NCBI GenBank assembly: GCA_021161345.1
Contig: JAGHAU010000186.1
Coordinates: 1-36,654 of the forward strand
DNA from: Anaerolineales bacterium
GTDB lineage: Bacteria > Chloroflexota > Anaerolineae > Anaerolineales > UBA11858
Direction: 5' to 3'
DNA length: 36,654 nt
The translations under genes were made by a program, and so were the position numbers. Positions 23,140 to 26,207 of the stretch are shown piece by piece; the stretch's first letter is position 1; every line of letters starts with the position of its first letter. Below the pieces are notes generated by a model. The model did not search any database, was not told the origin of the DNA, and saw only the letters and a list, made by a program, of their open reading frames with translations.

Positions 23140-23167
23140 ATGACTTAAGCTGTGTCTGGTGTAAAAT
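23140..23167 (+). promoter_or_regulatory. Possible promoter for the aminotransferase leader (ATGACT - 16 nt - TAAAAT)
   Basis: Approximate matches to -35/-10 only; upstream of leader ORF. Confidence 0.35.
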
Positions 23168-23260
23168 GCGGGCACAATCAGTTGGGCGCAGACGCATCCA
23201 ACCAAATTGAACAAGTATAGCCAGGTACTGATCCGGGACTTGTTTACAGGATAATAATTG

Positions 23261-23362
23261 ATGGTAAATAAAGGCAGCTTGATTTTATTACCTCTTTGGC
23301 GACCTGATCAACTGATCAGGTTGTTGGTCCTATTGCAGTTGTTATTATTTGAACCTACCTAA
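23261..23362 (+). CDS. Leucine-rich leader peptide MVNKGSLILLPLWRPDQLIRLLVLLQLLLFEPT (not in supplied ORF track)
   Basis: ATG 23261 to TAA 23360-23362; AGGA at 23248-23251 as SD; 12 of 33 codons are Leu, including runs LLVLLQLLL; followed immediately by a terminator hairpin. Confidence 0.65.
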   Translation: MVNKGSLILLPLWRPDQLIRLLVLLQLLLFEPT

Positions 23363-23370
23363 GATGCCAG

Positions 23371-23409
23371 GCCTGTTTCGGGGAAAAAATAGAAACGGGC
23401 TTTTTTTTT
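23371..23409 (+). terminator. Intrinsic terminator in the leader of the PLP aminotransferase gene
   Basis: GCCTGTTTC (23371-23379) pairs with GAAACGGGC (23392-23400), followed by T9 (23401-23409); CDS starts 18 nt later. Confidence 0.85.
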
Positions 23410-23433
23410 ATCCCACTAGCTCGGGAGGTGTAT

Positions 23434-24687
23434 ATGAGTGAAGATCACGACTTGAAACGTGAAATACCAGTTTTAGATTGGGATTCCCATTTGGCCGAAC
23501 GCACTAAATCCATGCAAAGTTCAGCCATCAGGGAACTGCTAAAAATCACCCAGGACCCTGAAGTGATTTCCTTTGCGGGGGGGCTTCCGGCACCGGAAGT
23601 ATTCCCGATTCAGGAAGTAGATGAAGCCTGCTCCTATGTGCTGCAAAATATGGGCAAAAAAGCCCTGCAGTACAGCGCGACAGAAGGATATTATCCCCTG
23701 AAGGAATTCCTGGCCTCATCCATGCATAAATATGGCATCCCTGCTCTGCCCGAGAATGTCTTGTTGACTAATGGCTCCCAGCAAGCCCTAGATCTGGTTG
23801 GAAGGATTTTTATTGATCCTGGAACTTTCGTTTTGTCGGGGCGGCCAACATACCTGGGCGCAATTCAGGCCTGGGGGGCTTATCAGGCAAAGTTCCATAC
23901 TATGCGAGTGGATGAACAAGGTATGGTGGTTGACGAAATTGAACATGCCTATGAAAAAGCATTCAATGAGAGCGGAAAACCGCCGGCATTCATTTATGTG
24001 CTGCCCAATTTCCACAATCCCGCTGGAACTACCCTGCCGCTGGAACGAAGGATCAAACTGGCAGAGATTGCCACAAAATTGGATATCGCAGTTATTGAAG
24101 ATGATCCTTACGGCCAGCTCAGATTTGAAGGGGATCATATTCCGCCGATCTGCCATTTGATCCCGGAACGGACCATATATCTGGGAACGTTCTCTAAAAC
24201 CATGGCACCGGGTTTAAGGTTGGGCTGGATCGTTGCCTCTGAAGCACTGATGAAAAAGCTGATCCAGGCCAAGCAGGGCTGCGATCTTCATACCGGTACT
24301 TTTGTTCAGTATGTCGCCAATGATATTTGCGAACGGGGTCTCCTGAAACCGCATATCGATAAGATTCGCAAAGTCTATAAAAAGCGCCGCGACACAATGC
24401 TGGATTCCCTGGCCGAATTCTGGCCGGAGGAGTGTTCGTGGACAAAACCCGAAGGAGGTTTATTCCTGTGGGCGCGAGTTCCGGAAACGATAGACACAGA
24501 TAAATTCCTGAGGGAAAAAGCACTCAAAGAGAAAGTGGCCTACGTCCCGGGAATCAATTTCTATCCAAATGCAGATGGCGGACATGATGCTATGCGCTTG
24601 AATTTCTCATATGCTCCTCCGGAAGTCATTGTCGAGGGCATTAAAAGATTGGGGCTTGCATTAAAAAAGGAAATAGCCGGGGGCTAA
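23434..24687 (+). CDS. PLP-dependent aminotransferase, class I/II (2-aminoadipate/LysN- or MocR-type branch); start 23434 favoured over 23428
   Basis: Motifs ISFAGGLPAPEVFP, LQYSATEGYYPLKEFLA, NFHNPAGTT, EDDPYGQLRF, YLGTFSKTMAPGLRLGW; SD gggaggtg upstream. Confidence 0.9.
   Translation: MSEDHDLKREIPVLDWDSHLAERTKSMQSSAIRELLKITQDPEVISFAGGLPAPEVFPIQEVDEACSYVLQNMGKKALQYSATEGYYPLKEFLASSMHKYGIPALPENVLLTNGSQQALDLVGRIFIDPGTFVLSGRPTYLGAIQAWGAYQAKFHTMRVDEQGMVVDEIEHAYEKAFNESGKPPAFIYVLPNFHNPAGTTLPLERRIKLAEIATKLDIAVIEDDPYGQLRFEGDHIPPICHLIPERTIYLGTFSKTMAPGLRLGWIVASEALMKKLIQAKQGCDLHTGTFVQYVANDICERGLLKPHIDKIRKVYKKRRDTMLDSLAEFWPEECSWTKPEGGLFLWARVPETIDTDKFLREKALKEKVAYVPGINFYPNADGGHDAMRLNFSYAPPEVIVEGIKRLGLALKKEIAGG

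Positions 24688-24827: not shown

Positions 24828-26207
<1,380 letters not shown>

Follow-up and report, generated by a model that had tools for sequence, protein, structure and literature searches.

Organization of the locus

The window analysed here is positions 1-36,654 of contig JAGHAU010000186.1, from the draft genome of an Anaerolineales bacterium (Chloroflexota; assembly GCA_021161345.1). It includes an aminotransferase gene preceded by a co-oriented rRNA methyltransferase gene and followed by a glutamate dehydrogenase (GDH) gene. The features of interest are all on the forward strand:

23140..23167, + strand: promoter-like element found by promoter scan (ATGACT at 23140-23145, 16-nt spacer, -10 TAAAAT at 23162-23167)
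23208..23246, + strand: stem-loop of the 5' UTR upstream of the leader ORF, from a predicted fold
23248..23251, + strand: AGGA, Shine-Dalgarno-like motif of the leader ORF, 9 nt before its ATG
23261..23362, + strand: leader ORF of 33 residues, 12 of them leucine, reading MVNKGSLILLPLWRPDQLIRLLVLLQLLLFEPT; recognized by its sequence and its frame-specific leucine enrichment
23296..23327, + strand: hairpin 1:2 inside the ORF, with core CGACCTGATC (23300-23309) and GATCAGGTTG (23314-23323), from predicted folds
23317..23328, + strand: proposed antiterminator 5' arm (region 2), CAGGT-TG-TTGGT; pairing predicted with a ribosome over region 1
23366..23375, + strand: proposed antiterminator 3' arm (region 3), GCCAG-GCCTG, overlapping the terminator 5' arm
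23371..23409, + strand: intrinsic terminator, stem GCCTGTTTC (23371-23379) with GAAACGGGC (23392-23400), 12-nt loop, T9
23434..24687, + strand: fold-type I multisubstrate or 2-aminoadipate (LysN-like) aminotransferase, assigned by homology, the putatively regulated gene
24852..26207, + strand: NADP-specific glutamate dehydrogenase (NCBIfam PRK09414, above cut-off)

The original prediction, a leucine attenuator, was built on a leucine-rich ORF at 23261-23362 with AGGA 9 nt upstream, a 10-bp hairpin inside it, a strong terminator at 23371-23400 followed by T9 and starting 8 nt after the TAA, and an aminotransferase start within about 25 nt. All of these elements are present. The terminator stem has 9 bp and its T9 occupies 23401-23409; a simple terminator scan missed it because the loop is 12 nt long. 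With G-U pairs, the internal hairpin extends beyond its core and spans 23296-23327. For the aminotransferase, ATG 23434, 24 nt after the U-tract, is a better start than GTG 23428, since GGAGG lies just upstream and orthologues start there.

For comparison we used the genus of the window, represented by 10 genomes (the window's draft, G000, and nine relatives), and within it the leaders of the six closest genomes, L001-L006, which are those of the window and its five closest relatives. The prediction also depended on a promoter upstream of 23261, and the promoter-like element listed above, with a predicted transcription start around 23174, occupies that place. Its GTAAAAT is invariant in the six closest genomes, and a -35-like TTGACT is found in three of them; as judged from sequence, the promoter-like element is conserved. 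At the position of the 5'-UTR stem-loop (23208-23246) several relatives have a stem-loop of different sequence.

A short reading frame rich in leucine codons

Of the 32 codons that follow the start codon of the leader ORF, 12 encode leucine, against 10.0% in the long genes of the window (p=3.2e-5), which served as the reference for leucine content and codon usage. The leucines form two clusters, at codons 7-12 and 21-29. When the intergenic region was shuffled with preservation of dinucleotides, only 0.3% of the shuffles contained an ORF of 15-60 codons having 12 or more leucines. Chance is thus a poor explanation for the ORF. In the six closest leaders together, leucine makes up 29.8% of codons in frame versus 13.7% and 4.4% in the other frames, L006 being weakly enriched (6/32, p=0.09). 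TTG and TTA provide 37 of the 56 leucine codons of these leaders and 29% of those in the window's genes.

Relatives have AGG/GGA-type motifs where the window has AGGA. The short ORF, with its ribosome-binding site and clustered control codons, is translatable, and we infer that it is translated. Its start, ATG 23261 or the alternative TTG 23258, is not certain because L006 has ATT at the position of the ATG; in that genome the start must be TTG or an in-frame GTG two codons on.

Conservation of the leader in the genus

The aminotransferase has an orthologue in all nine other genomes of the genus (75-85% identity), and a short ORF rich in leucine, isoleucine and valine followed by a U-tailed hairpin precedes the gene in 10/10. 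The peptides have diverged (examples are MVLNQLLAGSMMISVHLDRWLVLYDLLFWNT and MGLVSILSLEIARRPVQQAILFSLLALLLLVNT) with their content of these three residues kept. Control codons are therefore retained while the rest of the peptide drifts, which is the pattern that the original prediction expected among relatives of a true attenuator. Helices are predicted near the position of hairpin 1:2 in the relatives as well, with different sequences. A more distant orthologue, L066 (70% identical and the closest in the named collection), has no terminator upstream and a promoter-like element close to the gene.

These comparisons bear on the idea that the peptide acts through its hydrophobic sequence, by nascent-chain arrest or as a small protein, and not through the supply of leucine codons. 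The leader peptides are indeed hydrophobic. Yet their sequence is not conserved, of the nine codons that differ between L004 and L005, a close pair, eight encode a different residue, with most exchanges among hydrophobic ones (as compared by eye), and the less-used leucine codons predominate. We regard this explanation as very improbable.

The usual neighbourhood in the genus is RlmD, leader, aminotransferase and GDH. This raises the question of whether the hairpin simply terminates the transcript of the upstream methyltransferase, the ORF being accidental, as its place in the window, with co-oriented genes on both sides, might suggest. But the leader and the terminator persist both in G006, where the upstream gene is divergent, and in G003, where it is unrelated. 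In G006 the hairpin cannot be the terminator of the upstream gene, because that gene points away from it. Moreover, a conserved -10 element follows the methyltransferase stop and precedes the leader ORF, the leucine enrichment depends on the reading frame both in the genus and in a second family (see below), and the aminotransferase would need its own promoter within the 24 nt that separate the U-tract from its ATG. This alternative, which the original prediction itself had raised, is contradicted by the two exceptional genomes, and we give it a very low probability overall. In addition, each of the six closest genomes has the terminator pattern exactly once, at the aminotransferase locus, so it is not a generic terminator there.

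The geometry of the leader is not uniform in the genus. In L001-L006 a gap of 8-12 nt separates the end of the ORF from the terminator stem, whereas in L007-L010 the ORF runs into the terminator 5' arm. ORFs of the latter kind do not fit the simple attenuation model: a ribosome on them should prevent termination, which is the opposite of the classical behaviour. Just before the terminator, L007, L009 and L010 have a separate hairpin (GGTGCTGCAAGAGCACC, GGTGCTGCCGAGGCACC and GATACTGCTTGGTATC) with compensating changes.

A predicted antiterminator and the proposed mechanism

The best predicted antiterminator of the window pairs 23317-23328 with 23366-23375 by ten base pairs with a two-base bulge, and is favoured in the predictions with a ribosome placed over the 5' arm of the internal hairpin. 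A CAGGTT/GGCCTG pairing had been suggested originally; it forms the core of this helix, although its statistical support is weak. At region 3, CAGGCCTGTTTCG does not vary among the six closest genomes. L004 and L005 are predicted to form this antiterminator helix as well, so that three of the six species, including that of the window, share it, with other pairings in the rest. A mutually exclusive antiterminator is predicted in all six leaders, but not a uniform one, and none common to all six was found. Another candidate lies near the stop codon, where GAACACCTG would pair with CAGGCCTGTTTC; it is good in L002 and L003 but weak in the other leaders.

At the best stall position, the terminator base of the six leaders is predicted to be blocked with values of 0.66-0.89, and of about 0 with a ribosome at the stop codon, the latter value following largely from masking. 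The predicted block is already 0.42-0.74 without a ribosome, which leaves the default state of the switch unclear. In a joint shuffle test the stalled state reached 0.635 versus 0.538 (sd 0.088; p=0.13, not significant); for the gain over the ribosome-free state, L001 (p=0.04) and L004 (p=0.01) stand out. Given the joint result, the helix between 23317-23328 and 23366-23375 is a proposal.

Under the mechanism that we propose, the transcript would start near 23174 and its 33-codon leader would be translated, the sensor being leucyl-tRNA with some weight of isoleucine. With enough charged leucyl-tRNA, the ribosome would reach the stop codon at 23360 and cover the sequences that can block the terminator, and the hairpin at 23371-23400 would end transcription. 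When leucyl-tRNA is short, the ribosome would stall in the first leucine cluster and cover the 5' arm of the internal hairpin; this would free CAGGTTGTTGGT (23317-23328) to pair with GCCAGGCCTG (23366-23375), allowing RNA polymerase to read through. The direction of this response is something that we infer, because the support for the antiterminator is weak and the ORFs of four relatives overlap the terminator.

A compact leader in a second family

Among public genomes, 36 orthologues of the aminotransferase gene are preceded by a shorter, compact leader. Its ATG lies mostly 9 nt after a TAAGAT-type -10, so that a leaderless or nearly leaderless ORF is predicted. The peptides resemble M.RILAL.L.GILMP and are followed by a strong terminator; leucine makes up 27.9% of codons in frame versus 7.9% and 3.7% in the other frames. 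The linker after the stop codon is complementary to the base of the terminator, with a score of 224 versus 170.8 in shuffles (sd 7.4), in a set of related sequences whose palindrome also has other uses in some of the genomes. About a dozen compact leaders have an ORF that extends into the stem of the terminator.

Across 301 genomes of the order, a covariance model of the compact leader finds matches in 64; one other family accounts for 63 of these and the window's own family for none. Since the model misses the window leader, the two are not shown to be homologous, and the window leader may be either a diverged relative of the compact one or an independent gain at the same gene. In f11 genomes (for example G043, G201 and G113), palindromes of the form CCTGACAGGT-loop-ACCTGTCAGG occur up to about 15 times per genome, and apparently constitute a favoured bidirectional terminator. 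The presence of the same palindrome at many places in some genomes weakens any special status of the conserved hairpin of the compact leaders.

A T-box or metabolite riboswitch in place of a translated leader was also considered. The same genomes do have several T-boxes, and the window has a SAM riboswitch elsewhere (RF00162, 28502-28611, + strand, 82.3 bits), its sole Rfam match at gathering level. Against this, no Rfam family reaches the gathering score over the window leader or the compact leader, the T-box covariance model has no match in the leader region or anywhere on the window's contig, and the best sub-threshold match over the window leader, at 20.8 bits for a gathering score of 41, is Trp_leader, itself a leader-peptide attenuator. 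Conservation furthermore follows the reading frame. We regard this reading, too, as very improbable.

The putatively regulated enzyme and its metabolic setting

The aminotransferase most resembles 1wst and 3aov, both multisubstrate aminotransferases, and LysN of Thermus. LysN accepts leucine, and enzymes of its type have relaxed specificity. The original designation as a 2-aminoadipate or MocR-like enzyme is right in its first part, a stand-alone LysN-like aminotransferase, and wrong in its second. The PdxR profile gives 241 bits for an NCBIfam cut-off of 320, with a match that begins at profile position 90, and an additional N-terminal winged-helix domain is ruled out because the 417-residue aminotransferase has no room for it. 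A MocR/PdxR-type regulator was therefore rejected.

A GDH homologue follows the aminotransferase in 9/10 genomes of the genus, and in the window it is possibly the second gene of the transcript. Searches for ilvC and leuA found neither in 9/10 of these genomes, which are drafts of 84-93% completeness with a consistent absence, and class IV aminotransferases (PF01063) were not found in five of the ten drafts (G000-G009). The missing ilvC and leuA, and often class IV aminotransferases, suggest that the genus is auxotrophic for branched-chain amino acids (BCAA) or uses an unusual route. The first absence also makes the link of the enzyme to leucine an indirect one. In the second family ilvC and class IV aminotransferases are mostly present, which led us to reject the aminotransferase as a general replacement of IlvE there, and no GDH relative was seen in the inspected loci (neighbours were listed for two). 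In the window's genus, with PF01063 absent from five of the ten drafts, it may replace IlvE.

A role of the aminotransferase in branched-chain metabolism, as the original prediction implied, is no more than plausible, the genus having lost ilvC and leuA. The retention of a putative leucine switch after the loss of ilvC and leuA suggests that the aminotransferase and GDH may re-aminate scavenged branched-chain 2-oxoacids when leucine is short, or take part in amino-acid fermentation.

Discussion

Our results make it probable that a ribosome-mediated transcription attenuator responding to leucine, or to BCAA more generally, controls the LysN-like aminotransferase and perhaps GDH too. The conserved leader, the promoter-like element upstream of it, and a terminator that is independent of the upstream gene all support the reading first proposed for this locus. 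Because a leucine-rich ORF and a terminator precede the gene in the window and in nine relatives, a shortage of leucine-loaded tRNA probably switches the gene on.

The sign of the switch could nevertheless be the opposite. A moving ribosome might enter the terminator stem and block it, so that leucine sufficiency would induce a catabolic aminotransferase in a BCAA-auxotrophic fermenter. This would suit the overlap of the ORF with the terminator 5' arm in L007-L010 and in several compact leaders, the loss of ilvC and leuA in the genus, and the presence of archaeal multisubstrate aminotransferases among the closest solved enzymes. But in L001-L006, the window among them, the geometry is classical, with 8-12 nt between the end of the ORF and the stem, the GDH next to the aminotransferase is NADP-specific, and overlapping ORFs also precede ilvB in Actinobacteria, where the mode of regulation is unclear (PMC1262725). 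We hold this opposite sign to be unlikely. Similarly doubtful is the coexistence, at one aminotransferase in one order, of two attenuator forms that differ in sign, one with the ORF ending before the terminator and the other with the ORF running into it; if true, it would mean that a leucine switch flipped its sign when the biosynthetic route disappeared and the enzyme took on a role in amino-acid catabolism.

If the attenuator reading is correct, leader-peptide attenuation would be extended to Chloroflexota, and an enzyme usually named 2-aminoadipate or generic aminotransferase would gain a leucine-linked function. The natural series at one orthologous gene, from a separate ORF with a ribosome-binding site to compact near-leaderless leaders and ORFs overlapping the terminator, allows attenuator geometry to be compared. 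In a literature search of incomplete coverage, leucine-rich attenuators turned up for other phyla but not for Chloroflexota; nor did the literature searched describe leader-peptide control of the LysN/multisubstrate family, to whose members in Thermus (LysN) and Thermococcus/Pyrococcus (2egy, 1wst, 3aov) the aminotransferase has full-length homology (E 1e-94 to 1e-110).

The window leader resembles proteobacterial leuL and ilvL in its short leucine- or BCAA-rich ORF with a ribosome-binding site, its internal hairpin, its less-used leucine codons and the intrinsic terminator just before the gene. It differs from them in its phylum, in its target, a class I aminotransferase instead of leuABCD or ilvGMEDA, in an antiterminator that is not firmly defined, and in the ORFs of several relatives that overlap the terminator. 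In Staphylococcus aureus, a leucine-rich attenuator peptide is reported to be tied to BCAA synthesis genes (PMC5794164); it is likewise a leucine-rich leader outside Proteobacteria, in another phylum and with other target genes. Finally, Actinobacteria have leuS attenuators and ilvB leader ORFs that overlap terminators (PMC1262725). The leaders described here share with them the runs of isoleucine, valine and leucine codons and, in L007-L010, the overlap with the terminator, and are set apart from them by target gene, phylum and, in the window, an ORF that ends before the terminator.
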